64,000 bases of DNA from Pyrinomonadaceae bacterium (GTDB taxonomy: Bacteria; Acidobacteriota; Blastocatellia; Pyrinomonadales; Pyrinomonadaceae): contig JAJQRF010000002.1 in NCBI GenBank assembly GCA_021228405.1, positions 620,001-684,000 of the forward strand. The letters run 5' to 3'. The notes below the pieces were generated by a model. That model ran no database searches. It saw only the letters and a program-made list of their open reading frames with translations, and was not told the DNA's origin. Shown piece by piece: positions 3 to 11,993 of this stretch. Position 1 is the first letter of the stretch; each line of letters begins with the position of its first letter. The position numbers and the translations under genes were made by a program.

Positions 3-1703
3 GATACTACTGAGGCTGTAGAATTTCTTAATTCAGCTGCCAAAATATGGCGTAGCTGTGGCAAATACTGTGCGGCGGGTTTTGCCATGTCAAGATGTTC
101 GATGATTCTTTGGGAGAAGGAAGAAAGATCAATCGAGTATTCTGTTGAGGCTATAAAGGATTATCGGAATTGCATTGAGAATGCTCCTCCAAATATTTTT
201 GAAGGAATAGTGGCTATCCATTGTTGGATACAGCAGCTTAAACAAGTAATGCCTAATGCTTCTAACAGCGGTGATTTAAATGAAACTGTTGGGAAATTAC
301 GTACAAAACTTGCACAGTTACTTACAGAACACTTTCAGCAGTCCGCCGATGCTCAATACTATCTCGTAAAAGGATTTTCTGTCAGAACTAATTTCAAGGA
401 CGATTGGGAAGCTGAATTTAATAACAAAAGCATAAATGACCGTTCTACAACTTGGTCTACTGAATTTTTCAACATAGGATTATCACCAGCCTTTAGTTTG
501 TTTCTTGAGACCGCAGACTATGAAGCAGCTAATAACATAATTATTCAATTTGAAAATTCTTTTGACAATATAAGTTTAAAGGGCTGGCGTTCAGCGGTTC
601 AGGGTTTTGCTAATCCGCAAGCTTCCCCGGAAAAGTTTGCTGAGGCTGCTGATATATTTGCTCAAGATACTCATCCAGGCTTTGAAGAAGTTAGAAAAAG
701 AGGAATGTGGGATTCAACCAATATTGAGTTGTGGGCTAAATACTTCAAAGCACGATCTGAATTGGCTTATGCTATTGAGTTTCCTGAACAAGCGAAAGAA
801 CATATTATTAATGCAGCAAAATGTTTTGAGAACAAAGGTTTAGGCTGGCTCGATCCAAATGTTTCAAGATTCAAAATATTAGTTCAAACGTTAGCCAGAT
901 TAGTAGGCAATGAAGAATCAATAAGTTTTGAAGAAGCAAAAGAGCAACTTTTTCATACCTCTATTTTTCTAGGAGAATACGAAAGCGATGCTTTCACATC
1001 AACCTTTTTAGATTTGTCTTTTCAATCACTAAAAGGATTCGAGACAGACCCTGCAACGGAAATTACCACAGGACGGTTAACAAAAGCGTTGGACGCTTTA
1101 TCCAAAATTCCACTTTTAGGTCAAGATGCGATACAAAGTGCAATTCCTTTTATTGGAAAAAATGCCTTAGAGAAAGTTCTTGGCTTAAATCAAACTTGGA
1201 TTCATCGAACTTTAGAAAATATAACTGATGAAAATTCAGTATTACAAAAAATTATACTCCGCTTGTTGCAAGCTTCAATACCTTCATATGCACAAATTCG
1301 GCAAGGTCCGCTTGAGTATGGAAAGGATATCGTTGTTCTTATAGAGGAAGAAGGAAAATTTACTCTGCGAATGTATCAGGTTAAGTGCGGCGACATCAAT
1401 ATGTCGAAGTGGAGAGAAGCACGTAATGAATTAGAAGAAGCTTTTTTGGTTAAGTTGCCCTCTTTACAGATTAATGAACAAGTAGATAAAACCGAAGTAA
1501 TACTTATTTGTAATGGTCATGCCAAACCTAGTGTTGAACCTGTCATGGATGGTTGGTTTAAAGAACAATCAAAGATTTATGGCAGAGTATTTAGGTTTAT
1601 ACATTTAGATGGTTTTGTTTCTTGGATTTTGAAAGATCGTTTAGTAAGTGAATTTAAATCCGCTTTATCTGAATTAAATTTGAAGCCTTTCATAGAAAAC
1701 TAG
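3..1703 (+). CDS. Partial helical-repeat protein with nuclease-like C-terminal domain
   Basis: The frame is open to the left edge of the window, so the gene starts outside; the first internal ATG (base 87) is not a convincing start. Most of the protein is alpha-helical and looks like degenerate TPR-type repeats. The C-terminal 130 residues change character: a G-K-D motif (about 1318-1328) followed by a Q-V-K motif (about 1378-1386) between predicted beta strands resembles the D...(E/Q)xK core of PD-(D/E)XK nucleases of the Mrr/NERD type. The gene is AT-rich and lies inside the presumed Tn7-like element ending at 2474, where defence genes are common. Function is not recognised; a defence nuclease with a helical sensor is an inference. 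Confidence 0.6.
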   Translation, partial: DTTEAVEFLNSAAKIWRSCGKYCAAGFAMSRCSMILWEKEERSIEYSVEAIKDYRNCIENAPPNIFEGIVAIHCWIQQLKQVMPNASNSGDLNETVGKLRTKLAQLLTEHFQQSADAQYYLVKGFSVRTNFKDDWEAEFNNKSINDRSTTWSTEFFNIGLSPAFSLFLETADYEAANNIIIQFENSFDNISLKGWRSAVQGFANPQASPEKFAEAADIFAQDTHPGFEEVRKRGMWDSTNIELWAKYFKARSELAYAIEFPEQAKEHIINAAKCFENKGLGWLDPNVSRFKILVQTLARLVGNEESISFEEAKEQLFHTSIFLGEYESDAFTSTFLDLSFQSLKGFETDPATEITTGRLTKALDALSKIPLLGQDAIQSAIPFIGKNALEKVLGLNQTWIHRTLENITDENSVLQKIILRLLQASIPSYAQIRQGPLEYGKDIVVLIEEEGKFTLRMYQVKCGDINMSKWREARNELEEAFLVKLPSLQINEQVDKTEVILICNGHAKPSVEPVMDGWFKEQSKIYGRVFRFIHLDGFVSWILKDRLVSEFKSALSELNLKPFIEN

Positions 1704-1880
1704 GCTTCATTAAATTTAAGATTCCCACATTAAGGTTGAGTATTTGATTATAATATTAGACAATAGAGAAACGAATAACTTACCTATAATTAATACCTAA
1801 AAATCGCCCAGTTTTATTTTCCTACAAATTCAACTCCGTATTTTTCTACGGACATTAGAAATCAACGATTTCAATTTAGG

Positions 1881-1915
1881 AATCGCGCTAATTGCATGCG
1901 CGATTATTTTATTTT
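1881..1915 (+). terminator. Intrinsic terminator after the partial nuclease-like gene
   Basis: An 8-bp perfect GC-rich stem (AATCGCGC, 1881-1888, with GCGCGATT, 1898-1905) is followed directly by a T-rich run on the plus strand. It lies 178 bases after the stop codon of the upstream gene. Confidence 0.6.
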
Positions 1916-1923
1916 TATTGGTA

Positions 1924-1956
1924 AAATCCGGGAACTCCACTTAAGTTCCCGGATTT
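1924..1956. terminator. 13-bp hairpin
   Basis: Perfect 13-bp inverted repeat (1924-1936 with 1944-1956) with a 7-base loop. The arms begin and end in A/T runs, so it could act as a terminator in either direction, or as a structural element in the leader of the small peptide that follows. Confidence 0.5.
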
Positions 1957-2058
1957 CATTAGGCAGGTGCCTAATACCGAGTCCAACGGCAAGTCACTGA
2001 TACAAGATAATTTACCGACAGTCAAGTTGTATTTGGCATCTCCCAAGCAGGAGATAAA

Positions 2059-2136
2059 ATGAAAATACTCAAAATTATTTTGAGGTTGCTCGCGGTTATT
2101 CTAACGATTTTGTTTTCAGTTACAATCACAGGCTAA
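2059..2136 (+). CDS. 25-residue hydrophobic membrane peptide, toxin-like
   Basis: An ATG follows a good ribosome site (CAGGAG, 5 bases upstream). The 25-residue product has a Lys-rich N-terminus (M-K-I-L-K) and then a continuous Leu/Ile/Val stretch long enough for one membrane helix, ending T-I-T-G. Directly downstream is a very strong 20-bp terminator hairpin, and upstream are folded leader sequences. Size, composition and architecture match type I toxin peptides such as the Ibs/TisB/Ldr groups, although I recognise no specific family. No antisense antitoxin RNA is proven. It lies within the element that ends at 2474, where a small addiction module would fit. Confidence 0.5.
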   Translation: MKILKIILRLLAVILTILFSVTITG

Positions 2137-2143
2137 TCATCAA

Positions 2144-2187
2144 GATAGCAAAAAGGGCAGAAATACATTTCTGCCCTTTTTGCTATC
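2144..2187. terminator. Strong bidirectional terminator, 20-bp stem
   Basis: Perfect 20-bp inverted repeat (2144-2163 with 2168-2187) around a 4-base loop. Each strand shows a GC-rich core (GGGCAG/CTGCCC) flanked by A5/T5 runs. It starts eight bases after the stop codon of the 25-residue peptide gene and insulates it from the transposon end downstream. Confidence 0.75.
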
Positions 2188-2389
2188 TAAATTGAGAAAA
2201 CTGAATCTTCAACAAAAATTAAACACAGATATTGATCGTTGAACAACTAGAGGTATATAAGTATCGATTATGTAACTATATTTGGTAAATCTTGATTTCC
2301 GAAATACATTTCTTACAAAAACTTGCTTCAATTCTTAGTTTACGAGAATATTAAAAACTCAAATCATTGAAAATAAAACAGTAGTGCAA

Positions 2390-2474
2390 CTTATGGTGTA
2401 TTTCATTTCAACTTATGGTGTATATTTGACCAACTTATGGTGTGAAAATTTCAACTTGTGGTTAATCGTGCACA
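2390..2474. mobile_element. Probable right end of a second Tn7-like element
   Basis: Three direct copies of CAACTTATGGTGT occur within 60 bases (about 2389, 2409 and 2431), followed by a diverged copy (CAACTTGTGG, 2452-2461). The array finishes in ...GTGCACA at 2474, i.e. TGTGCAC read inward on the other strand. Repeated transposase sites next to a terminal TGT/ACA is the organisation of Tn7-family ends, and the complete element at 12,886-42,398 ends the same way. The partner end and the 5-bp duplication (predicted AGGTT, 2475-2479) would lie left of the window. I infer that everything from the left edge to 2474 is cargo of this element. Confidence 0.5.
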
Positions 2475-2541
2475 AGGTTTATCCTGCACCAATAATGATA
2501 TGAAAGTGACAGGAACTTTGAGAAAGGGAGGACTCAAAAAA

Positions 2542-2622
2542 ATGAAAATTGAACTAACAAAAACACAGAAAGAAAAGACGTTTGACTTCAGCATAGCAAA
2601 CAGATTTCACTGGAGTATTTAA
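2542..2622 (+). CDS. Possible 26-residue peptide
   Basis: A short reading frame beginning M-K-I-E-L-T-K with a GGGAGG ribosome site 10 bases upstream. The product is charged, not membrane-like, and no family is recognised. It lies between two repeat arrays and may be chance or the remnant of a longer gene. Confidence 0.22.
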   Translation: MKIELTKTQKEKTFDFSIANRFHWSI

Positions 2623-2750
2623 CATAAACCGTTGTTAATTCTATTTCCAAATAAATTTTGACTTTCGTAATATTTTTGCTACTGTCATCCTATTGAATTA
2701 CCCGTCATGAGGTAGTCAACTATTGAAAATAAAAGGATTACAAAAAGGGA

Positions 2751-2894
2751 GAACTTCAGTTTCCAACTTAATTGCAACACTTAATTTTATGAAAGTTATA
2801 AAAATGAACTTCAGTTTCCAACTTAATTTTAGAAAGGGTAAAAACGGGCTACCTAGAATCAATAACTTACGGGCAGTTCAGTTTCCAACTTAAT
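2751..2894. repeat. Three direct repeats, possible second transposon end
   Basis: TTCAGTTTCCAACTTAATT occurs three times (2755-2773, 2810-2828 and about 2876-2894), with spacers of about 36 and 47 bases. Copies 1 and 2 also share an upstream GAAC. The unequal spacing and lack of cas genes argue against CRISPR. The last copy runs into ...GAAGACA (to 2906), which again reads TGT inward, so this could be the end of another Tn7-like element of a related type; both repeat families contain CAACTTA. Confidence 0.4.
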
Positions 2895-2944
2895 TGCGTG
2901 AAGACAAATTTGTCAATTGCCGAATATTATTTCGAGGATTTAAT

Positions 2945-2980
2945 AAAAAAGTCACCTTATTTGAGGTGACTTTTTTATTT
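2945..2980. terminator. Bidirectional intrinsic terminator
   Basis: Inverted repeat 2945-2957 with 2964-2976 (core GTCACCT/AGGTGAC) with A6 on one side and T6 on the other. It can end transcription of the AAA-ATPase gene arriving from the right (minus strand) and of anything arriving from the left. Confidence 0.7.
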
Positions 2981-3145
2981 AGGATTAGCTTGAATTTGCA
3001 ACATATAGTTAGCCGGCAAAAGTTTATTATTGTCACAAATTAAAATATTAATTTCGCTGAAAGTCAGATCGAACTGCCTTATGCTTATTTATGAAAATTT
3101 GCGGACAGTTTTTACTGCTCCCAAATTCAAGGCAGCTTATCTCTG

Positions 3146-3949
3146 CTAAATGATCGTCGTGACGATTTCCCGAATACTTCTTTGTAATTCGCGGTCGTCA
3201 GTGATCGGGGAACAGAGCGCGACTTCTGCCGCCGCGACGGGTGAAATTCCTTTGGCGATCATTTGGGCGGCGTAAATCAAGAGTCTGGTCGAAACGCCTT
3301 CTTCGAGTCCGTGTCCGCGCAGATTTCTGACCTTTTGACCGATTTTTACGAGGTCTTGCGCAGTTTGCGAATCGATACCGCCTTCTTTGGCGACGATTTC
3401 GGCTTCATCTTCGGCGTTCGGATAATCAAATTCCATGGCGACAAAACGTTGTCTGGTCGATTGTTTCAAATCCTTCAAGATCGATTGATAACCCGGATTA
3501 TATGAAACGACGAGCATAAATTCGGGCGGTGCTTCGATCACCGTTCCACGTTTTTCGATGGGTAAACGGCGGCGGTCGTCGGTCAAAGGATGGATAATAA
3601 CGACCGTGTCTTTGCGCGCTTCGACGACTTCGTCGAGATAGCAGATCGCGCCCGCACGCACAGCGGTCGTGAGCGGTCCGTCGTGCCAGATGGTTTCTTC
3701 GCCTTCGAGCAAAAAACGTCCGACGAGATCGGTCGCCGACAAATCTTCATGGCACGCGACCGTTATCAAAGGACGGTTCATCCGGTGCGCCATATATTCG
3801 ACAAAACGCGTCTTTCCACAGCCTGTCGGACCTTTGAGCATCACAGGCAATTTTGCCGCGTAAGCTGCCTCGAAAAGCTCGACTTCCTGATTGATCGGCA
3901 GGTAATAAGGTTCGTTATCGACTTTGTATTTTTCAACTGCTAGTTCCAT
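3146..3949 (-). CDS. NorQ/CbbQ/MoxR-type AAA ATPase
   Basis: A 267-residue AAA+ ATPase. Walker A is G-P-T-G-C-G-K-T at residues 40-47 and Walker B is A-I-C-Y-L-D-E at about 101-107; the C-terminal half has the helical lid typical of the NirQ/NorQ/CbbQ branch. Members are chaperone-like motors that work with a VWA-domain partner (NorD, CbbO) to activate metalloenzymes such as NO reductase or Rubisco. Length fits the family. No VWA partner or client enzyme lies within the window: downstream is only the terminator and transposon ends. The partner could lie further left, beyond inserted DNA, or the gene may stand alone. The client is unknown. Confidence 0.85.
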
Positions 3950-4095
3950 AGATAGTTTAATTAAATCACAAAAAAATCAGATGAACACTTTTGCATTCAT
4001 CTCTTTATATAAAATTAAATTTGACAAATCCTCTGCAAATGATCGAATTTGTATCGTCAGGATTCAATTATAACTTTGAAGATAAGGACGCAAAA

Positions 4096-4521
4096 ATGAG
4101 AAAAAGTAAAATTTTATTGATCGGTTTGATAAGCTTATGTTTTTTATTCGATGCAGTCGGTGTTTCGGCACAGACAAAGATCGATGTTTTCTGGAAAAAA
4201 TTTAAGGCGGCAGTTACGAAAAAAGATAAATCCGCCGTCGCCGCAATGTCGAAATTACCTGTTTCAATGCCTTACGGCGTGAGATCGGTCAAGACGAAAG
4301 CCGAATTTTTACGGCGTTATAACGAGATATTTTACGGCGAAGCCGATGCCGCGAAATGTTTCAAGACTTCGCCGCTCAACAAAGTTTCGGCGACACGCTA
4401 CGAGGTTTCGTGCGGTTTCCGTAAAGACACGATCGGCGACGGCGGCGAACCTCTCGTTTACACCTTTGAATTAACGAAATCGGGCTGGAAATTTACGAGC
4501 TTCGACAACATTAATGAATAA
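4096..4521 (+). CDS. Secreted NTF2/SnoaL-like hypothetical protein
   Basis: I start at the ATG at 4096 rather than the in-frame ATG at 3991, because it gives a clean signal peptide (M-R-K-S-K, hydrophobic core, cleavage near V-S-A-Q) and follows an AAGGA-like ribosome site. The 141-residue product has a mature part of about 115 residues with the helix-then-curved-sheet pattern of NTF2/SnoaL or DUF4440-type domains. No catalytic residues can be assigned. It is divergent from the AAA ATPase gene and followed by a palindromic repeat. Confidence 0.6.
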   Translation: MRKSKILLIGLISLCFLFDAVGVSAQTKIDVFWKKFKAAVTKKDKSAVAAMSKLPVSMPYGVRSVKTKAEFLRRYNEIFYGEADAAKCFKTSPLNKVSATRYEVSCGFRKDTIGDGGEPLVYTFELTKSGWKFTSFDNINE

Positions 4522-4600
4522 TTGATACCGAATAGTTGATAATTGATAATAAAAAGGAAACTTCTCTTATTTTCAATTATCAATTATTCACTATCAATTC
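4521..4600. repeat. AT-rich palindromic intergenic repeat
   Basis: Imperfect inverted repeat built from ATTGATA/TATCAAT units (GATAATTGATAAT on the left arm, ATTATCAATT on the right). It fills the gap between two convergent genes and can act as a terminator hairpin. Similar palindromes occur at other host intergenic sites. Confidence 0.6.
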
Positions 4601-5630
4601 TCTCTATTCCTTCGATTTCCAGAATCAAATCTGCGCCGTAGCATTTAGCGGGTGTTTGAAAGCCGGGACAGAAATTTCCGTCGAGAATTTTTTCGGCGAT
4701 TTTTAGTGCGGTCAAGGCAGTCATCGTGTAGCCTTCCATTCCGATCTGTTCGGCTTTGACGACGTTTCCGTCTGCGTCGGACGCTTCGCCCCAGAGATAG
4801 GTTTTGCCTTTTTCGCGTTCTTCGTCCGATGGTCCGCCAGACGGAATTTGTCTGATCGCAAAGTTCTTAAAAGATTCGAGCGACATCAGCCAACCGAGAT
4901 AGCGCGAAAGCCTGAGCATCGCGATATTCGATTCGGGTAGAACGGTAAAAACCTCGATGTTCGGAATTCCGGTCGAATAAAATGCCGTCGAAACATCGCC
5001 CCACGGAATAGTGACGGCTTTCATCTTCTTTGCGCCCAGATCGATTTCCTTCGTTTTATAAGCCGCCGGAACGCTTTTTATCGCGCCGTTTTCACGAATC
5101 GCGCCGCCTTTGCCGAGATTCATCGTCATTGTCGCCTGTGTGCCGTGCGAAATCTTGCCCAAACCATAAAATGTCAACGTCAGATTGGTCGCGGACGGCA
5201 GACGGTCTTTTAAATGTTTCGCAAGACAGTCCGACGGCACCACGTCGAACCCGACACCGGACATAATCATAATTCCTTCGGCTTTTGCCTGTGCGTCACG
5301 CGCCGCCATTTCTTCAAAAACCGAGATTTCGCCCGTGATGTCGAGATAATGTTTCCCGTTTCGCAGACACGCTTCGACCATTCGTTGCGAAGTCAGCGAA
5401 AAAGGTCCGGCGCAATGCAGAACGAACCCGACTTCGCCCAAAACTTCGTCGAGCTTGGCGGTTTCTTCCAATGAAAAAACGCGAAACTCGAAACCGTGCG
5501 CGGTTGCGACTTCTTCAACCTTTTTCGCGTTTCTTCCTGCCAGAATCGGTTTCAAACCGCGGTCGGCGGCGAATCTTGCGATCAGTTCACCAGTGTAACC
5601 GTTTGCGCCGTAGATCAGAAAAGTTTGCAT
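4584..5630 (-). CDS. Saccharopine dehydrogenase-like NAD(P) oxidoreductase
   Basis: A 348-residue protein with an N-terminal Rossmann motif (Y-G-A-N-G-Y-T-G near residues 8-15) and the domain layout of saccharopine dehydrogenase-like enzymes, including the trans-acting enoyl reductases. G-R-N-A-K-K after the second strand suggests NADP use. Substrate cannot be read from the sequence: relatives act in lysine metabolism, lipid synthesis or unknown reactions. It is the last gene of a minus-strand run with YwbE, DinB and Aat, only three bases after the YwbE gene. Confidence 0.75.
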   Translation of the reverse strand: MQTFLIYGANGYTGELIARFAADRGLKPILAGRNAKKVEEVATAHGFEFRVFSLEETAKLDEVLGEVGFVLHCAGPFSLTSQRMVEACLRNGKHYLDITGEISVFEEMAARDAQAKAEGIMIMSGVGFDVVPSDCLAKHLKDRLPSATNLTLTFYGLGKISHGTQATMTMNLGKGGAIRENGAIKSVPAAYKTKEIDLGAKKMKAVTIPWGDVSTAFYSTGIPNIEVFTVLPESNIAMLRLSRYLGWLMSLESFKNFAIRQIPSGGPSDEEREKGKTYLWGEASDADGNVVKAEQIGMEGYTMTALTALKIAEKILDGNFCPGFQTPAKCYGADLILEIEGIERIDSE

Positions 5631-5633
5631 AAT

Positions 5634-5840
5634 TTAGTTTTCCTCTTTCTCCAAAATTTCCTGCACACGCCCGACTTGTCCGTCGGTCAGACGCACCTTT
5701 ATGCCATGCGGGTGAAAGTTTGAATTGGTCAGCAAATCTTTGACGATGCCGACGGTTCGTTTGCCGGTGCGTTGGTCTTGTTTCAGAACGATGGCGACTT
5801 TTAAGCCGGCGCGGATATTTTTTCTTTCACGATTGGGCAT
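5634..5840 (-). CDS. YwbE family protein
   Basis: A 68-residue basic protein matching the YwbE (DUF2196) family over its full length: R-K-N-I-R-A-G near the start, then V-A-I-V-L-K-Q-D-Q-R-T-G and H-P-H-G-I-K-V-R-L. The biochemical role of the family is unknown; the fold is a small beta-barrel-like domain that may bind nucleic acid. The start codon lies directly beside the stop codon of the DinB-like gene, indicating co-transcription. Confidence 0.8.
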   Translation of the reverse strand: MPNRERKNIRAGLKVAIVLKQDQRTGKRTVGIVKDLLTNSNFHPHGIKVRLTDGQVGRVQEILEKEEN

Positions 5841-6308
5841 TTATTTTTTCTCCAAAATCCGCATCAAAAATGCGATCTGTCCGAGATGATAAGCGTTATG
5901 ATCGGCGACAAGCATCGCTTCACGAAAAACGGTTTGCCCTTCGCCATGCGGAATTTTCGCCAGCAAATCGGTGTTTTCATCCGCAATCAGATCGCGCATT
6001 TTCCGTAAATCTTTTAAGACTTGCTCGCACGAACGTTTCCAATCTGCGGCGGTTCCCGCCGATCTGTTCCAGTAACCGTCGGGAAATTCGGGTGAAACGT
6101 GTTTTTCGTTATAGCTGAATTCAACGATGTCGTGCTGTGCGATCCGCAGATGCTCCAACAATTCCCAAGCCGTATGCGGTGCGTTTTCGAGGCTTGTATT
6201 GATTTCTTCGAGCGGAAATTCTTCCAGAACCGTTTTCAGATCGATATGTGCCGAGCGTCCTTCAAGCAATTCGCGCAGATGCGCACGTATTTCTTTTTGC
6301 GTGTCCAT
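5841..6308 (-). CDS. DinB-like four-helix protein
   Basis: A 155-residue DinB/YfiT-type protein. It has the four-helix pattern and the usual metal-binding histidines (H-L-R-I-A-Q-H-D in helix 2, A-D-H-N-A-Y-H-L-G in the last helix). Family members include thiol-dependent transferases for bacillithiol or mycothiol, but most are uncharacterised. It lies between aat and ywbE in a tightly packed minus-strand run. Confidence 0.8.
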   Translation of the reverse strand: MDTQKEIRAHLRELLEGRSAHIDLKTVLEEFPLEEINTSLENAPHTAWELLEHLRIAQHDIVEFSYNEKHVSPEFPDGYWNRSAGTAADWKRSCEQVLKDLRKMRDLIADENTDLLAKIPHGEGQTVFREAMLVADHNAYHLGQIAFLMRILEKK

Positions 6309-6313
6309 AATCT

Positions 6314-7003
6314 TTAAAACAATTTCAATTTTCGCGCCTGCGTTTCCGCAAGCTTTTCCAAAAAATCCCGGCGCGGAATTTCCTTTCCGCCGAGAACTTC
6401 AAAATGCGGTGTCATCACCTGTATGTCGAGCCAGGTTGCGCCGCGCGGTCTGAGATATTCGATCAGATGTAAAAGCGCGAATTTTGACGTGTTCGGGCGT
6501 AGATGAAACATACTTTCACCGCAAAAAACGCCGTTCGCATCAACGCCGTAAAGCCCGCCGACGAGCGTTTCGCCTTCCCAAACTTCGACGCTGTGTGCAC
6601 CGCCGAATTCGTGAAATTTTGTGTATGAACGAATGAAATCAGCCGTGATCCACGTTCCGAAACCGTCTTTGCGCCTGGCTTTCGCACAGTTTTTGATGAC
6701 AGCGGAAAAATCTTTGTCGATAGTGAAGTTGAAATTCGTTTTACTCCATTCCCTGCGCAGGCTTTTCGGAATATGAAGCTCGTCAAATTCTAAAATTGCA
6801 CGATACTCGGGACAAAACCAGGGCAATGGCAAACCGTCGATGTGCCACGGAAAAATTCCGCGTGAGTAGGCGTTTTGCAGATTATCGATAGTCAGATCGC
6901 CGCCGAAGCCGATAATATCGTGAGTATCGTAATAATATTCCCCAACCTTGAGCCAGTCGGAAAATTCGTGCGTGCGCGGATCGGGAAAAGTTATTTCAGT
7001 CAT
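6314..7003 (-). CDS. aat: Leucyl/phenylalanyl-tRNA-protein transferase
   Basis: A 229-residue protein matching Aat over its length: G-G-D-L and the G-I-F-P-W motif early, then V-E-V-W-E-G-E-T-L-V-G-G-L-Y-G in the GNAT-like core and the C-terminal H-F-E-V-L-G-G-K-E-I-P-R. Aat transfers Leu or Phe from aminoacyl-tRNA to N-terminal Arg/Lys of proteins, marking them for ClpS-ClpAP degradation. Length is normal (220-235). It is the first gene of the run with dinB-like, ywbE and the saccharopine dehydrogenase-like gene. Confidence 0.93.
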   Translation of the reverse strand: MTEITFPDPRTHEFSDWLKVGEYYYDTHDIIGFGGDLTIDNLQNAYSRGIFPWHIDGLPLPWFCPEYRAILEFDELHIPKSLRREWSKTNFNFTIDKDFSAVIKNCAKARRKDGFGTWITADFIRSYTKFHEFGGAHSVEVWEGETLVGGLYGVDANGVFCGESMFHLRPNTSKFALLHLIEYLRPRGATWLDIQVMTPHFEVLGGKEIPRRDFLEKLAETQARKLKLF

Positions 7004-7445
7004 TTTCGGAGCAAATTCTCAAAGTTTCTGTTTAACCAAAATAACAAATTTAACTAAGTAAAGAAAATGAAAGGATTTATTAACCGCCGATTGCCAATCC
7101 GTTTTTGGATAATTTCAAAATCACTGAATTTTGGCAATTTCGTGCGTGATCCGACTTTGTTCGCAAATCGGCTTTGCTGAAATAATCTGCTCCGGTTTTT
7201 TATCCGGCGAAAACTTTTTTGCGATTTTCCGAAGGTAAATTGCTTTAGCCATCTGTTCTGATTTGTTTTTAATTGAATAATTTAACTTGAAACAAGATAC
7301 AGAGGCAGTTGAACGTTACTGCCCTGATTCTATTGATAGAGTCAGGGCAGTTTATAAAAAAACTCCAGTTTACAAGCGGGTTTCGGAATGGTAAATCCTG
7401 ATCCCGACACTTAAACGCTTCGCGAAGAAAAATCAGGAAAATTAT
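7004..7445. other. Non-coding gap upstream of aat
   Basis: No gene is supported here. The gap holds the aat promoter region (minus strand), a small hairpin CCGG-T6-ATCCGG near 7194-7208, and a strong hairpin at 7318-7351 listed separately. Confidence 0.5.
7318..7351. terminator. 14-bp hairpin, probable terminator
   Basis: Inverted repeat 7318-7331 with 7338-7351 (ACTGCCCTGATTCT with AGAGTCAGGGCAGT, one G-T pair) and a 6-base loop. It lies 95 bases past the end of the carbonic-anhydrase-like gene. There is no good T run, so terminator function is probable but not certain. Confidence 0.5.
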
Positions 7446-8090
7446 CTAAACGGAATTTCCGCATTGCTTGCGGTAGTAATTGATGCTGTAGATTTCGTTT
7501 TGCCTTCGTTGGAAAATATTTTTCTGCAAGTTTAGCTGGTCTGACGATTCGACGGAAAATCCCAAATCCTGAATAGAACCAGAATGCGAATCGTAAAAAA
7601 GTGCCGATATTTTTACCCTTGCACCTTGCTTCCATCGCTTTTTGATTATGGCGGAATCACCGATGTTCAAAACTTGTTTCAAGACATTCAATCTGGAAAT
7701 AAGTTCTAATTGACCCGAAAAATTCAGATCATCCGGCAGAGATTGATTTTGAAAGGCAAAGTGAGAAAGCGGCACCGCCCAATTATTTAGAAAATCAAAT
7801 CTCTTGCCGCTTTCATCCAAACTTAAGCGAAGTATCTGGCATTCGTTGTGTCCGAATACGAAAATGTTTTCCGAATTCTGCACTTCAACCGCAAACTGTA
7901 AAGCAGTTTGAAAGCTTATGTCACTTAAAAGCCCCATATTTCCGGCATTTTTATGTGTAAACTGCTTCAACTCGGAATATGCGGGAGAATATGAACAGTC
8001 AATGCAAGACAACCAGAAATCATTGTTTCGACTATACCTTACCGCAAAATCTTCTTCCGAAACTTTCGTGCTTTTCTTCAAAATATCCAT
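7446..8090 (-). CDS. Beta-carbonic-anhydrase-like protein, altered active site
   Basis: 214 residues that follow the beta-carbonic anhydrase pattern: F-W-L-S-C-I-D (residues 25-31), then H-K-N-A-G-N (46-51), S-I-S-F-Q-type helix and V-F-G-H-N-E-C (78-84). The zinc ligands Cys29, His81 and Cys84 and Asp31 are present. The Arg of the usual C-x-D-S-R motif, which pairs with the Asp to open the active site, is replaced (C-I-D-C-S). The long C-terminal part is diverged. It begins 34 bases after the icd stop and is probably co-transcribed. CO2 hydration is possible but a changed or lost activity is as likely. Confidence 0.6.
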   Translation of the reverse strand: MDILKKSTKVSEEDFAVRYSRNNDFWLSCIDCSYSPAYSELKQFTHKNAGNMGLLSDISFQTALQFAVEVQNSENIFVFGHNECQILRLSLDESGKRFDFLNNWAVPLSHFAFQNQSLPDDLNFSGQLELISRLNVLKQVLNIGDSAIIKKRWKQGARVKISALFYDSHSGSIQDLGFSVESSDQLNLQKNIFQRRQNEIYSINYYRKQCGNSV

Positions 8091-8124
8091 TTCTAAAATT
8101 GCCTCTCCGGAAATTCAAACTAAA

Positions 8125-9585
8125 TTATTGTCCCTGACCGAGCGAATAGCCCTTCTCGCCGTCAAATTCGCAGAGCGTTTCGATCTTGATAAAGTCCAGC
8201 CCGAGCTCGTTGACGCGTCCGAGAAGATTGATAATTTGCGGATGGCGGACAATTTTATTATCGTTTTCCGCTATGAAACGGCAACGCCAATGATCCGTGC
8301 AAAAGGTTTCCGGCAAACCGTTCGGATAAACTTTAACTCCGCGATTTGTAATCATTTGCAGTTTAACTCCGTCACCGTTTACCTTCTCCAGCAGGTTGCC
8401 GAGCTCGTTCGGCGAACCGTATTTCCAATCGAGAAAAACATCAACGCCGACCATTTCCTTCTTCTCGCCGTGCGAATGACCGTTTGTTTTGGAAATCTTC
8501 GGGAGATTCACTGATTTTGCCGAATATTTGACCGGTTTCAGCGTTTCGGGTTTTTGTCCGAGCCGATTCATAACCGCTTCGGCAAATGCACGCGTGCCGA
8601 CTTCTTTTTTACTCACGCCTTCCTTGAAAACATCGTTCGTATGAATCCCGTCCTCGATGGTTTTCAGCCACGCGTTATGAATTCTTTCGGCGGCTTCGGT
8701 TTGATTCAGATGAACCAACATCATAATCGCGCCGTGCAGAAGTCCTGACGGATTTGCGATGTTCTGCCCCGCAATCTTCGGTGCAGAGCCGTGAATCGCT
8801 TCAAACATCGCAATGTTTTCGCCGATATTTGCCGAACCTGCCAGACCGATCGAACCGGCGATCTGCGCCGCGACATCGGAAAGAATGTCGCCGTAGAGAT
8901 TCGGCAGAATAATAACATCGAAATCGTCGGGCGTATCCGACAATTTTGCCGAACCGATGTCAACGATCCAATGTTCGTTTTCGATGTCGGAATACTGGGC
9001 GGCGACTTCGTCAAAAACCTTGTGAAACAACCCATCGGTCATTTTCATAATGTTGTCTTTCGTGAAACACGTAACTTTTTTGCGATTGTGTTGACGGGCG
9101 TATTCAAAGCCGTAACGGATGATCTTTTCGCAACCCGGACGCGTGATGATCTTCAAGCATTGGTAAACCTGCGACGTTTGACGATGCTCGATCCCGGCGT
9201 AAAGGTCTTCTTCGTTTTCGCGAATAATGACCAAATCCATTTTCGGATGTTTCGTATCAACGAACGGTGCGTAGGAAACACACGGACGAACGTTTGCGAA
9301 AAGTCCCAAAGTCTTGCGAACCGTCACGTTCAGCGATTTATAGCCGCCGCCTTGCGGAGTCGTGATCGGTGCTTTCAGAAAAACTTTTGTGCGTCTTAGC
9401 GAATCCCACGATTCAGTTGAGATTCCGGCAGTGTTACCGGAAAGATATACTTTCTCGCCGATCTCAATCATTTCGATGTCGAGTTTTGCGCCGCTCTCTT
9501 CAAGAATATCAAGAGTTGCCGACATAATTTCAGGTCCGATTCCGTCACCGTATGCAACCGTTATTGCGCTTTTTTCGTTTTTCAT
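8125..9585 (-). CDS. icd: NADP-dependent isocitrate dehydrogenase, Thermus type
   Basis: A 486-residue member of the isocitrate/isopropylmalate dehydrogenase family. G-D-G-I-G-P-E-I opens the first strand, R-E-N-E-E-D-L-Y-A-G-I-E-H is the substrate loop, and the N-L-Y-G-D-I-L-S-D and H-G-S-A-P-K-I-A-G-Q motifs hold the Mg2+/cofactor site. The extra C-terminal domain of about 140 residues is the hallmark of the Thermus-type enzyme and explains the length. The enzyme oxidises isocitrate to 2-oxoglutarate in the TCA cycle. A ribosome site (GGATG AAGAAAA region) precedes the ATG. Confidence 0.88.
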   Translation of the reverse strand: MKNEKSAITVAYGDGIGPEIMSATLDILEESGAKLDIEMIEIGEKVYLSGNTAGISTESWDSLRRTKVFLKAPITTPQGGGYKSLNVTVRKTLGLFANVRPCVSYAPFVDTKHPKMDLVIIRENEEDLYAGIEHRQTSQVYQCLKIITRPGCEKIIRYGFEYARQHNRKKVTCFTKDNIMKMTDGLFHKVFDEVAAQYSDIENEHWIVDIGSAKLSDTPDDFDVIILPNLYGDILSDVAAQIAGSIGLAGSANIGENIAMFEAIHGSAPKIAGQNIANPSGLLHGAIMMLVHLNQTEAAERIHNAWLKTIEDGIHTNDVFKEGVSKKEVGTRAFAEAVMNRLGQKPETLKPVKYSAKSVNLPKISKTNGHSHGEKKEMVGVDVFLDWKYGSPNELGNLLEKVNGDGVKLQMITNRGVKVYPNGLPETFCTDHWRCRFIAENDNKIVRHPQIINLLGRVNELGLDFIKIETLCEFDGEKGYSLGQGQ

Positions 9586-9722: not shown

Positions 9723-10124
9723 TTAAGCCAATGAAATCATAACTTCGGTTGCCTTAAACAGCGCGGCGGCTCTCATTCCTTTTCTCAATCCCAATTCTTC
9801 GCATCCGCTCCGCGTGATGATCGAAATGATTATCTGACCTCCGACGTTCATTTTGACTTCGGCAAAAAGCCCTTCATACCTTACTTCCAAAACCTCACCG
9901 ACCAGCCTGTTTCGGACACTGATCGGCTCGCTGCTTTTAGAAGAGTTTCCATTCTGTTCAAGCTCCTTTTCGCCCGTGATCCGCCGTATTTCCTCTTCGG
10001 GAATACGATGATGTCCGCCCGGCGTTTTAATTGACTTGATCTTTCCTTCATAAATCCACTGCTTAATTGTTGGATAACTTATACCGATTTGTTCGGCAGC
10101 GTCTTTTGTCTTAAAAGACTTCAC
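9723..10124 (-). CDS. HTH-TOBE (Mop) regulator
   Basis: 133 residues in two parts. Residues 1-55 are a MerR/excisionase-type winged helix (T-K-D-A-A-E-Q-I-G-I-S-Y-P-T-I-K-Q-W, then the G-G-H-H-R-I-P wing). Residues 70-133 are a TOBE/Mop domain (N-R-L-V-G-E-V-L-E-V-R ... V-M-I-S-L-A) that in other proteins binds molybdate or tungstate. This pairing is found in small regulators of molybdate-type genes. Upstream are several ATACGA copies that could be its operator. No molybdenum gene is nearby, so the ligand is inferred from the domain alone. Confidence 0.75.
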   Translation of the reverse strand: MKSFKTKDAAEQIGISYPTIKQWIYEGKIKSIKTPGGHHRIPEEEIRRITGEKELEQNGNSSKSSEPISVRNRLVGEVLEVRYEGLFAEVKMNVGGQIIISIITRSGCEELGLRKGMRAAALFKATEVMISLA

Positions 10125-10280
10125 TAAAACTGTTATACTAATTTATACGAATCTCGTCAAATCTATTACGAAAATATTTGATTTTATATACGATAATATA
10201 CGATTTTATATAAAAATTTCCAAAAATATACGAATCTAGCCGTTTTTCACTTGACAGTAAAAATATTTATTAAATAAAGT
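10125..10280. promoter_or_regulatory. Divergent control region with ATACGA repeats and riboswitch promoter
   Basis: The gap between the HTH-TOBE gene and the riboswitch contains repeated ATACGA units: one near 10145, a pair in a near-palindrome around 10187-10205, and one near 10228. Copies in a short regulator promoter suggest an operator. For the plus strand a promoter fits: TTGACA at 10251-10256, 18-base spacer, TAAAGT at 10275-10280, which would start RNA close to 10287, exactly where the riboswitch begins. Confidence 0.55.
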
Positions 10281-10288
10281 AACGATTG

Positions 10289-10388
10289 TGTGAAAGGGGA
10301 GTAGATCACCCGTGCGGTTTGATGCGATCGTCAATACGTTCAGAGAAATCTGAGCCGGTTCATCAAAAAAGTATCGAGACCTTTCGTA
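10289..10388 (+). ncRNA. yybP-ykoY (Mn2+) riboswitch
   Basis: The conserved opening GAAAGGGGAGTAG (10292-10304) and closing GAGACCTTTC (10376-10385) of the yybP-ykoY class are present; their GAAAGG and CCTTTC ends pair as stem P1. Between them are GTCAATACG and TGAGCCGG segments typical of the internal arms. This RNA class binds Mn2+. Downstream, CTTTCACA (10428-10435), just before the AAAGGATG ribosome site, is complementary to TGTGAAAG (10289-10296) at the 5' strand of P1, giving a plausible switch by alternative pairing. The regulated gene is an outer-membrane barrel. Confidence 0.75.
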
Positions 10389-10448
10389 GGTGTTGTTTAT
10401 TTAAGCAATTTCTGCGAGAGGTTTTTTCTTTCACAGGCAAAGGATGAA

Positions 10449-11126
10449 ATGAAAAAAATAATTTTATTGAGTTTATTGAGTTTACTTTTTTCCGTAGACG
10501 CTTTTTCTCAAACTCGCTATGAAACCGATTTCCAGCTTTGGAACGATACGCAAATAATCGTTCCGCTCAACAAAAAGAAAGACTGGAACTTTGTTATATG
10601 GACGTTTGGGCGTTTCGGAAACAATGTGAAAACGACAACCGATGCACGAATCGGCGGTCTGCTTACGAAAAAAGTTAATAAATATGTCACGCTCGGCGGC
10701 GGGTATCTGTATCGCTACTCAAATCCGACTTTCAAACTGAAACGATATGAAAGCCGTTATCTCGGACTTGCGACTTTTACGGCTCCGCTCAGTAAAGACA
10801 AAAAATGGACTTTGGTAAATCGTAATATGTATCAATACGAAGACCGTTATTCGCGCCCGAATGCGACCGTTATTCGGAATCGTTTCTGGGTAAAACGCGA
10901 AGTTACGATCTCGGAAAAAAAGTTTGAGCCGTTCGTTTCGTTTGAAACATTTTACGATTTTCGTTTGAAAGATTTTGCCCGTTACAGAACGCAGGCGGGA
11001 GTTTCACATAAATTCAATAGCAAATTTTCAGCCGATATTTACTATGTTCGGCAGGACGAAACGGGAAACCGGCTTCGTCCGGGAACACTAAACGGAATCG
11101 GAACCAGTTTCCGTGTAAATCTATAA
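10449..11126 (+). CDS. DUF2490-like outer-membrane beta-barrel protein
   Basis: A 225-residue protein with a signal peptide (M-K-K-I-I-L-L-S core, cleavage near A-F-S-Q). The rest alternates aromatic and polar residues in about ten short strands and ends in a strand with C-terminal N-L, as expected of an outer-membrane barrel; the pattern resembles DUF2490. The start follows an AAAGGA ribosome site. It lies directly behind the putative Mn2+ riboswitch, so a role in metal passage or metal stress at the outer membrane is a reasonable inference, although the family itself has no known function. Confidence 0.7.
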   Translation: MKKIILLSLLSLLFSVDAFSQTRYETDFQLWNDTQIIVPLNKKKDWNFVIWTFGRFGNNVKTTTDARIGGLLTKKVNKYVTLGGGYLYRYSNPTFKLKRYESRYLGLATFTAPLSKDKKWTLVNRNMYQYEDRYSRPNATVIRNRFWVKREVTISEKKFEPFVSFETFYDFRLKDFARYRTQAGVSHKFNSKFSADIYYVRQDETGNRLRPGTLNGIGTSFRVNL

Positions 11127-11166
11127 AAACATAAATTAAAGAGCTAAAAATAGGGAAAATAAAAAA

Positions 11167-11709
11167 ATGAAAAAAATAATTCTGGTTTTAACAATCGTTT
11201 TGGGGCTGTCAACCCTGAGTTTCGGACAAAAGGCTTCGAGCTTTAACATTACTGAACAGATGATCGCCGATGCGCAAAAAGCCTGGTGCGGAGCATTGGT
11301 TCAGATCAATGAGGCGAAGGAAAGAGGAGAAGATTATAAAAAAGTCGCTTCCGACGTTATCGATGCGGCTTATTATTATCAAGCCGGTCCTGTTCTTTTT
11401 AAACCTACTTTGACGAGCGGCGACCAAACTTTCCGAATGGACAAGGAAGGGGCTATGGCTTATTTCGTCGGAGGAAACGATAAATATAAAAACGACAACG
11501 GATTCGCTTTGCGCGGCTGGAAAAAATGCGAAAGCAAACCGAGAGGTTTGATTTTGAACGGCGATATGGCGATTTCTATGGGAAATGTTTATATCTGGAA
11601 TGCCAGAGGCGAGGAAACGGTAGTTGACAAAACCTGGGGCTATAAACTGGACGAGAAAGGCAGTTTAAGGATCATCTTGCATCATTCTTCATTGCCCTTC
11701 AAACCATAA
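11167..11709 (+). CDS. Secreted SnoaL/CaMKII-association-like protein
   Basis: 180 residues with a signal peptide (M-K-K-I-I-L-V, cleavage near S-F-G-Q). The mature part matches a widespread periplasmic group, sometimes labelled phosphoribosyl-AMP cyclohydrolase in databases, with V-L-F-K-P-T-L, Y-F-V-G-G and the C-terminal R-I-I-L-H-H-S-S-L-P-F motif. The fold is SnoaL/NTF2-like; no cyclohydrolase zinc site is visible, so I do not transfer that name. It sits 40 bases after the barrel gene, probably in the same riboswitch-led transcript. Confidence 0.6.
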   Translation: MKKIILVLTIVLGLSTLSFGQKASSFNITEQMIADAQKAWCGALVQINEAKERGEDYKKVASDVIDAAYYYQAGPVLFKPTLTSGDQTFRMDKEGAMAYFVGGNDKYKNDNGFALRGWKKCESKPRGLILNGDMAISMGNVYIWNARGEETVVDKTWGYKLDEKGSLRIILHHSSLPFKP

Positions 11710-11762: not shown

Positions 11763-11790
11763 AGCCTAAGTCAAATTTAAGACTTAGGCT
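11763..11790. terminator. 10-bp hairpin after the barrel operon
   Basis: Perfect inverted repeat AGCCTAAGTC (11763-11772) with GACTTAGGCT (11781-11790) and an 8-base loop, 54 bases after the stop of the secreted protein. A T run is lacking, so it may be a weak terminator or an RNA 3'-end structure. Confidence 0.45.
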
Positions 11791-11993
11791 CAAACTCTGC
11801 CTTTCGCTCTATCCCTTCATAAACCTGTCATAAACGAACTGGAAGGTTTAGTTATGTATCAGTTGGGAATATATAGAGCAAAACGTTTTGATTGAACAAG
11901 AATTCATCGTTTGAAACGGTTATCCGGTTGGGCTTGGCTTAACTGCCAAATTAATGCTTACTTGTGATTTTAGAACTTCCAAAAAAATCTGAA

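Follow-up and report, generated by a model that had tools for sequence, protein, structure and literature searches.

What kind of gene regulation a manganese-type RNA would exert in front of an outer-membrane protein gene, rather than the exporters or transporters usually led by yybP-ykoY riboswitches, is the question raised by a locus of the acidobacterium Pyrinomonadaceae bacterium (assembly GCA_021228405.1, contig JAJQRF010000002.1, positions 620,001 to 684,000 of the forward strand, a 64,000-nucleotide stretch referred to here as the window). A sequence-only reading of positions 10289-11709 had proposed a Mn2+-type riboswitch preceding a DUF2490-like barrel and a secreted SnoaL-like protein, with a helix acting as a switch at the ribosome site, and had suggested an outer-membrane step in manganese handling. 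The observation itself has been confirmed, with each of the elements described being found in the sequence. Its interpretation is supported only in part: the RNA class and the prediction of an outer-membrane barrel, though not settled at the level of its fold, are supported, while the switching mechanism and the identity of the second protein are not, and the role in manganese handling is possible but received no specific support.

A search with the Rfam covariance model RF00080 had been put forward in advance as the means of verifying the RNA, and a score below threshold as grounds for discarding it. This search was negative, with no hit at the gathering score in the window, none at E<=10 on 10200-10500 (where the five Rfam matches are all far below their gathering scores), none in the organism's own genome, and none above the cut-off in 118 genomes of the family, where 14 sub-threshold matches lie at other places than the sites described below. 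Nonetheless, the test is unreliable for this class and does not separate members from non-members, since in Escherichia coli K-12 the same model scores mntP at 41.6 bits (significant, E 1e-8, but under the cut-off of 45) and does not list alx at E<=10. A covariance model was built from 25 relatives (termed R1), which scores the window at 91.8 bits, although the window is part of its training set. With filters off, R1 ranks E. coli alx (29.8 bits, E 1.9e-6) and mntP (20.0 bits, E 8.5e-4) first and second of 8 kb, followed by a hit with E 0.61; these E-values come from a short calibration and are rough, but the homology to proven members is statistically significant. In Acidobacteriota, R1 finds 66 sites, with 60 of these in 48 of the 118 family genomes.

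Covariation provides further support for the RNA. The initial alignment was drawn from 28 aptamers, after removal of the duplicate loci L001, L035 and L037, of which 25 were used (L012 and L018, near copies, and the second site of L038 were left out). On this alignment, which was not fitted to the model and for which the structure was drawn by us from folds of these sequences, the covariation score was 0.443 against 0.208 in shuffles. On the alignment of 66 sequences, which is fitted to the model, 93.0% of cells were paired against 76.5%, with a score of 0.550 against 0.213 and at most 0.158 in slid controls.

The aptamer occupies 10292-10385 on the forward strand, and comprises helix P1.1 (10292-10297 with 10380-10385), loop L1 GGGGAGUAG (10296-10304), P1.2, a short P2 and P3 with its loop L3. 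The sequence GGGGAGTAG is present in 63 of 66 sites, the L3 motif UCAxxAC in 63 of 66 and the CA of L3 in 66 of 66. The adenosine at 10333, in the UCA of L3, is the candidate Mn2+-contacting residue, being by its position in the motif the counterpart of A41 of Lactococcus lactis and A48 of Xanthomonas oryzae (PMC6754395). When compared to the riboswitches of E. coli alx and mntP and of L. lactis, this RNA shares the L1 sequence, the L3 motif with its invariant adenosine, a 3' GAGACC and the P1.1 switch helix, as well as, in the case of alx, a downstream TerC-family gene. It differs in falling below Rfam detection, in its tiny P2 and in the organization of the junction: the four-way junction P1-P4 is not formed, as P4 is absent here and in 47 of 66 sites in all, and present in 19. 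A three-way-junction member of the class has, however, been reported for Streptococcus mgtA (PMC9495176), such that P4 is not strictly defining and its absence is not considered new. That RNA is reported to bind Ca2+ more tightly than Mn2+ and is associated with different genes, whereas ligand binding by the present RNA was not assayed.

Upstream of the aptamer, a sigma-70-type promoter-like site (10251-10280, TTGACA-18-TAAAGT) matches 10 of 12 positions and would start the RNA just before the aptamer. A best match of at least 9 of 12 was observed in the 60 nt upstream of 57 of 66 sites, with a mean of 9.35 against 7.13 in mononucleotide shuffles; in that survey a tied alternative -10 was picked for the present site. 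Downstream, an intrinsic terminator spans 10376-10432, its 5' arm beginning with GAGACCUUUC, the 3' strand of P1, and its U-rich tract covering 10422-10432. The fold of 10376-10435 has an energy of -25.7 kcal/mol (z -6.8), and the same arrangement was detected in 53 of 59 sites, against a shuffle mean of 7.2 and a maximum of 13. One site, L116, excluded from this count by a GTAG filter, was later restored, so that the terminator count refers to 59 sites and those of promoters, motifs, outer helices and downstream genes refer to 66. In a recount with a wider loop range, which had no shuffle control of its own, the terminator pairing was seen in 64 of 66 sites. P1.1 therefore competes with an expression platform in a transcriptional ON layout, an arrangement described for the L. 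lactis Mn2+ riboswitch (PMC11087558).

The outer helix on which the ribosome-site switch had been based is also present, with TGTGAAAG (10289-10296) and CTTTCACA (10428-10435) being exact 8-base complements. A full 8-pair match (G-U allowed) in the corresponding stretch occurs in 9 of 66 sites, with 2.1 expected; of these, 5 are among the 9 sites linked to carbonic anhydrases and 4 among the other 57. Nevertheless, CTTTCACA overlaps the end of the U-rich tract and is transcribed at or after that end, too late to steer termination. This pair has been rejected as the main mechanism, and a switch at the ribosome site is unlikely.

The first gene of the operon (10449-11126, forward strand) encodes a DUF2490 protein (PF10677, 67.5 bits against a gathering score of 29.8) with a signal-peptide-like N terminus, as judged by eye. 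This family is listed as putative porin family TC 1.B.81 (PMC4827864), and the protein is predicted to be an outer-membrane beta-barrel or porin. Its AlphaFold model has a mean pLDDT of 81.8 and is all beta after residue 25. A Foldseek search gave four matches at E<=0.001, two porins (Omp32 and OmpC) and two mitochondrial TOM chains ranking as high, with most of the 50 matches shown being membrane barrels; TM values are only about 0.4, which does not settle the fold as an outer-membrane barrel one way or the other. The pairing of the riboswitch with DUF2490 in related genomes had also been named for a survey: only 7 of 111 DUF2490 matches in the family lie in operons with an R1 site, and 104 do not.

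The second gene (11167-11709, forward strand) encodes the protein taken for SnoaL-like, which is instead a homologue of the COG4337-type iota-carbonic anhydrases, a group including Anabaena all2909 and Bigelowiella Bn86287 (PDB 7c5v-7c5y). Homology extends over the whole domain, with E 4e-76 to 7c5x over three repeats and E 5.6e-42 to 7c5v over residues 27-179. Residues T81, Y99, H172, H173, S174 and S175 are invariant in 12 of 12 aligned sequences, with T81, Y99, H172 and S174 having the same spacings as the catalytic Thr106, Tyr124, His197 and Ser199 of all2909, and the HHSS motif is kept. The NCBIfam model NF047901 gives 176 bits, below its equivalog cut-off of 350, and CO2 hydration by the protein was not measured; the protein is homologous, but not certified as an equivalog. 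It differs from the characterized enzymes also in being placed behind a riboswitch. It has a signal-peptide-like N terminus, again by eye, and is predicted to be periplasmic.

The genes led by the other sites place this operon in context. Of 66 sites, 57 lead metal-export-type genes (TerC in 50, a P-type ATPase in 6 and CNNM in 1), including the other site found in the window's own genome, which has a TerC-family gene downstream; the TerC-family Alx of E. coli is annotated as a Mn2+ exporter. These classes rest on BLAST to representatives (E<=1e-6), with Pfam confirming 56 of 57: 49 of 50 TerC, 6 of 6 ATPases and the CNNM. The likely miss is a 54-aa fragment at a contig end, at site L043. In 5 sites a Usp gene comes first, and in 6 a TerB/DUF533-like gene. 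The remaining 9 sites, including the present one, lead carbonic anhydrases, 7 of the iota class and 2 of the beta class. DUF2490 is the first gene in 4 of these 9, constituting an optional partner, and what the nine operons share is a carbonic anhydrase. The presence of a beta enzyme in the same position in two genomes points to carbonic anhydrase activity itself as what is regulated. A gene for an Sbt_1 bicarbonate transporter follows in 4 of the 9 operons (family genomes G007, G034, G044 and G080), as well as in a TerC operon of genome G047, but was not found in the window's own genome. This is reminiscent of cyanobacteria, where an external carbonic anhydrase is combined with SbtA bicarbonate uptake, although here the genes lie behind a Mn2+-type riboswitch in Acidobacteriota; Rubisco and carboxysomes were not looked for.

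In the reverse direction, 7 of 7 iota-carbonic anhydrase genes found at E<=1e-10 in the 118 family genomes have the riboswitch upstream. The nine carbonic anhydrase sites may go back to one or a few recruitments, and 7 of 7 does not represent seven independent events: FastTree groups these sites at zero support with L043, which resembles them but leads TerC, while IQ-TREE does not, leaving a single origin undecided. Outside the family the link was not found, with 0 of 9 iota-carbonic anhydrase loci in other Acidobacteriota families (396 phylum genomes; about 1.5 kb on each side of the nine loci) and 0 of the 74 non-family loci among 80 from all bacteria. These 80 are the best of at least 518 confirmed relatives; 65 hold 4000 nt upstream, while L172 (482 nt) and L239 (27 nt) hold too little to tell. 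Scans of over 40 genomes used stricter filters (35 candidates scored per genome in the family scan, 10 in another), such that absence of R1 outside the family is a weak statement. Of 17 beta-carbonic anhydrase matches above 150 bits, 15 are not in R1 operons; this count and that for DUF2490 were judged by the R1 sites of the family scan. A riboswitch was also sought with filters off at an Sbt_1/beta-carbonic anhydrase/DUF2490 cluster of genome G045 and at four other beta-carbonic anhydrase loci, where the best hits, of 12.5-15.2 bits, were not accepted.

Taken together, the explanation considered best, and held with moderate confidence, is that 10251-10432 comprises a promoter, a P4-less aptamer of the yybP-ykoY class and an overlapping terminator. 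In this view, without ligand the 3' strand of P1.1 is taken by the terminator and transcription stops before the operon, while Mn2+ bound between L1 and L3 would hold P1.1 and allow RNA polymerase to read into the DUF2490 porin-like gene and the gene for the secreted iota-carbonic anhydrase homologue. The enzyme is probably made under Mn2+ excess together with cytoplasmic alkalinity, and would hydrate CO2 in the periplasm to H+ and HCO3-, countering alkalinity; in some relatives the Sbt_1 transporter would take up the bicarbonate. It has been reported that alkaline pH and Mn2+ act together on E. coli mntP and alx riboswitch reporters (PMC9603457). The computations establish the RNA class, the covariation, the terminator overlap, the operon content, the homology to carbonic anhydrases and the linkage across the family, whereas the ligand, the ON direction, the periplasmic location, the enzyme activity and the role in pH and bicarbonate are inferences, made without binding or expression data.

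Other explanations are all less likely. The first of these, itself unlikely, is detoxification, in which the secreted enzyme raises (bi)carbonate at the cell surface so that exported excess Mn2+ is precipitated or complexed as carbonate, with the DUF2490 pore exchanging ions. This would work with either carbonic anhydrase class, both having signal-peptide-like N termini by eye, and with co-regulation of Mn2+ exporters, but no direct evidence exists, and an Sbt_1 importer would work against extracellular carbonate. Slightly less likely is a metal-proof backup, in which Mn2+ excess mis-metalates the cell's zinc carbonic anhydrases and a metal-independent one replaces them. COG4337 enzymes act without metal and the window's genome has three beta-carbonic anhydrase-like matches at E<=1e-10 elsewhere, yet two operons use a beta enzyme instead. 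It has also been considered, with similarly little confidence, that the enzyme requires Mn2+ and is made only when the ion is plentiful, with TerC loading Mn2+ into it during export. A diatom iota-carbonic anhydrase of the COG4875 type has been reported as Mn2+-reactivated (PMC8132391), TerC proteins are reported in a preprint to metalate Sec-exported Mn enzymes (PMC10246235), and 8 of the 9 carbonic anhydrase-linked genomes also have a riboswitch site whose operon contains TerC. However, the protein is of the COG4337 type, active without metal in the two members tested, with the four catalytic residues kept, and in two genomes its place is taken by a beta enzyme, a class with Cys/His metal ligands (PMC8132391). 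The metal of that class is usually Zn. Less likely still, the clade may sense something other than Mn2+, for example Ca2+ or mainly pH, with TerC, ATPase and carbonic anhydrase following that signal; the Streptococcus RNA reported to bind Ca2+ more tightly and the frequent lack of P4 are in line with this, but the L1/L3 core and the adenosine are kept, and 50 of 66 sites lead operons with TerC. An outer-membrane manganese-handling step with an incidental carbonic anhydrase-like protein is very unlikely: DUF2490 is a predicted porin, but in the nine operons the carbonic anhydrase is always there and DUF2490 is not.

The analysis also shows a lineage of this riboswitch, in 48 of 118 family genomes, that RF00080 does not call. 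No paper with both yybP-ykoY and carbonic anhydrase was found in the library searched, and no such report was recognized in broader but partial searches, with the gene tables of the two 2015 papers on the class not having been checked. If true, the proposed reading extends the Mn2+ riboswitch from metal export to CO2/bicarbonate chemistry, and gives a physiological handle on iota-carbonic anhydrases, whose metal dependence differs between reports (Mn2+ for a diatom enzyme, none for COG4337 proteins). In its boldest form, which is considered about as likely as not, a cation riboswitch class known for metal export has been taken over in one acidobacterial family to run inorganic-carbon chemistry, with Mn2+ plus alkaline pH, read by RNA, turning on a secreted carbonic anhydrase (iota, or beta in its place), an outer-membrane pore and, in relatives, a bicarbonate transporter. 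This would constitute a Mn2+/pH-bicarbonate regulon and a case of riboswitch control of a carbonic anhydrase.

The sequence-only reading placed a yybP-ykoY-like RNA at about position 10289 of the window, followed by a DUF2490-like barrel and a SnoaL-like secreted protein, and put forward a TGTGAAAG/CTTTCACA pair as the switch. The observation itself held, with both the sequence and the open reading frames found as described, while its interpretation was supported only in part, as detailed below. A match to the Rfam family RF00080 had been proposed in advance as the test of the RNA, and its outcome was negative: no match was detected at gathering in the window, none to RF00080 at E<=10 on 10200-10500, and none in the genome from which the window derives. 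A nucleotide search of 119 family genomes, most of the genomes used being draft assemblies, returned many chance-level matches at the threshold of E<=10, as well as clear relatives, down to E 1e-44. A pattern scan of these loci revealed one shared layout, consisting of AAGGGGAGUAGAU, a very short hairpin, a long arm with CGUCAxxACG, then AUC[G/A]AGACCUU, followed by a hairpin and a U-run. Twenty-five of these were aligned, and for a structure drawn from the folds 92.5% of cells pair against 80.4% in shuffles, 15 of 27 pairs show changes on both sides, and the covariation score is 0.443 against 0.208, with slid versions reaching at most 0.142. A covariance model built here, designated R1, detected 60 sites in 48 of 118 family genomes and six more in other families of the phylum. 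On all 66 sites, in an alignment fitted to the model, the score is 0.550 against 0.213.

In order to place this RNA in a class, R1 was run with filters off on 8 kb of Escherichia coli K-12 around alx and mntP. The two known Mn2+ riboswitch leaders ranked first and second (29.8 bits, E 1.9e-6, and 20.0 bits, E 8.5e-4, respectively), with the next hit at E 0.61. RF00080 itself assigns mntP 41.6 bits, which is significant but under its cut-off of 45, and does not list alx, so the negative outcome that had been named as refuting the RNA does not decide the matter. As Rfam 15 RF00080 calls neither of these leaders at its gathering cut-off, surveys that rely on it may undercount Mn2+ riboswitches. 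Loop L3 reads UCAxxAC in 63 of 66 sites, and its adenosine, whose counterpart contacts Mn2+ through N7 in the solved structures (PMC6754395), is kept in 66 of 66. Judged by the length of the junction, helix P4 is missing in 47 of 66 sites, including all nine carbonic anhydrase (CA) sites, and is present in 19. A member with a three-way junction has been reported in Streptococcus (PMC9495176), so the RNA constitutes a variant and not a new class. The identity of the riboswitch is held with high confidence.

Regarding the mechanism, the 10 bases from GACCUU, which form the 3' strand of P1, pair with a downstream arm followed by a U-rich run in 53 of 59 sites, whereas 7.2 are expected from mononucleotide shuffles and the highest shuffle is 13. 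In the window, the terminator folds at -25.7 kcal/mol, with a z of -6.8. This is the layout described for the L. lactis Mn2+ riboswitch, where Mn2+ holds P1.1 and prevents the terminator (PMC11087558), and a transcriptional ON mechanism is considered likely, although somewhat less certain than the identity of the riboswitch. A promoter-like TTGACA-18-TAAAGT ends 11 nt before the aptamer in the window, and 57 of 66 sites score at least 9 of 12 (mean 9.35 against 7.13 shuffled). The outer helix formed by the TGTGAAAG/CTTTCACA pair brackets both aptamer and terminator. An 8-pair match is found in 9 of 66 sites (2.1 expected), five of them among the nine CA sites, and the 3' half of this helix is made only as polymerase leaves the U-rich tract. 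It may add stability, but it is unlikely to decide termination.

The first open reading frame encodes a DUF2490 protein (67.5 bits). AlphaFold on seven relatives gives an all-beta protein with an N-terminal signal-like helix (pLDDT 81.8, pTM 0.73), and a Foldseek search has four PDB matches at E<=0.001, comprising two porins and two mitochondrial TOM chains. Most of the 50 matches shown are membrane barrels, at modest TM scores, with a few unrelated proteins among them, and the family is listed as putative porins (PMC4827864). The second open reading frame, described as SnoaL-like in the sequence-only reading, encodes an iota-carbonic anhydrase homologue, matching 7c5x at E 4e-76 over its three repeats and 7c5v at E 6e-42. 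In a further alignment, it has the same T-Y, Y-H and H-S spacings as the catalytic Thr106, Tyr124, His197 and Ser199 of all2909 (PMC8132391), but it falls under the NCBIfam 'metal-independent carbonic anhydrase' cut-off (176 of 350 bits). Downstream of the operon, at 11765-11791, a 10-bp inverted repeat AGCCTAAGTC/GACTTAGGCT was observed by eye, without a clear U-run. A divergent gene just upstream, at 9723-10124 (-), encodes an HTH_17/MerR-like domain plus a TOBE domain, as in molybdate-responsive proteins, and its relation to the operon is unknown. About 2.2 kb upstream of the riboswitch, at 7446-8090 (-), lies a gene for a Pro_CA-like protein (72 bits) which is below the NCBIfam cut-offs.

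Each of the 66 sites has, within 3.5 kb downstream on its strand, a gene of one of two kinds. In 57 it is of metal-export type, namely TerC in 50 (eight of them behind an M48 peptidase), a P-type ATPase in six and CNNM in one, with Pfam in agreement for 56 of these 57. Representative M48, Usp and TerB/DUF533-like neighbours were also checked by Pfam. A recurring TerB-TerC-type set occurs under this riboswitch, as the operons at four loci (L106, L107, L111 and L125) follow the order c1-TerC-c6, where c1 of L125 is TerB/DUF533-like and c6 of L107 has no Pfam match at E<=0.001. In the remaining nine sites the gene is a carbonic anhydrase, iota in seven and beta with a signal-like N terminus in two. 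With RS denoting the riboswitch and G numbers the family genomes, the nine are RS-DUF2490-iotaCA (window and G029), RS-DUF2490-iotaCA-Sbt_1 (G034), RS-iotaCA (G045 and G057), RS-iotaCA-RidA-Sbt_1-RidA (G044 and G080), RS-DUF2490-betaCA with RidA further on (G069), and RS-betaCA-Sbt_1 with DUF2490 copies further on (G007). A TerC operon in G047 continues into DUF2490 and Sbt_1. Eight of the nine genomes have a further riboswitch site whose operon contains TerC, the exception being G080. In G034, a Pro_CA beta-carbonic anhydrase (126.8 bits) sits about 160 nt upstream of the riboswitch that leads DUF2490-iotaCA-Sbt_1 (locus L160, 2214-2828 (-), corresponding to G034:C6:128213-128827).

The linkage was also examined in the reverse direction. 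An iota-CA is found at E<=1e-10 in seven of 118 family genomes, and all seven genes lie under the riboswitch, although the CA-linked riboswitches may descend from few events. Outside the family, 0 of 9 iota-CA loci in the phylum has R1, and none has any Rfam match at E<=1, within flanks of about 1.5 kb. Among 80 loci from all bacteria, the best of a longer list of relatives, the six with the riboswitch are family members and the other 74 show none, with 65 of the 80 including 4000 nt upstream and two including under 500. For Sbt_1, five of 15 full-length genes are in riboswitch operons, while this is the case for two of 17 beta-CA matches above 150 bits and for seven of 111 DUF2490 matches, two of the latter lying about 3 kb downstream in G007. 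In one locus of G045 (L155, G045:C1, about 1000-9200), Sbt_1, beta-CA and DUF2490 genes lie within about 8 kb on one strand without an accepted riboswitch, although the same genome has riboswitch-iotaCA elsewhere, which suggests that the CA/bicarbonate/porin set may travel together. The tight link is thus that of the riboswitch to iota-CA, with the other partners being optional.

As to why a manganese switch should act on a carbonic anhydrase, it has been reported that in E. coli alkaline pH and Mn2+ together give full activation of mntP and alx riboswitch reporters, that Mn2+ stress itself alkalinises the cytoplasm, and that Mn2+ binds the mntP leader 17- to 22-fold tighter at alkaline pH (PMC9603457). 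A secreted enzyme that hydrates CO2 releases protons and bicarbonate, and Sbt_1 would take bicarbonate up. The two COG4337 enzymes tested were reported to hydrate CO2 without metal and not to run the reverse reaction (PMC8132391). All of the evidence obtained here is comparative, and bicarbonate transport by Sbt_1, the pore function of DUF2490 and secretion are inferred from family annotations or judged by eye. Carbonate precipitation, a metal-proof backup and a Mn-cofactor role remain as rival explanations; for the last, TerC proteins are reported to metalate Sec-exported Mn enzymes (PMC10246235, a preprint). The presence of a beta-CA in the place of iota-CA suggests that CA activity is what matters. 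The preferred explanation, held tentatively for this physiological step alone, is therefore that the manganese switch on the carbonic anhydrase serves pH/bicarbonate homeostasis.
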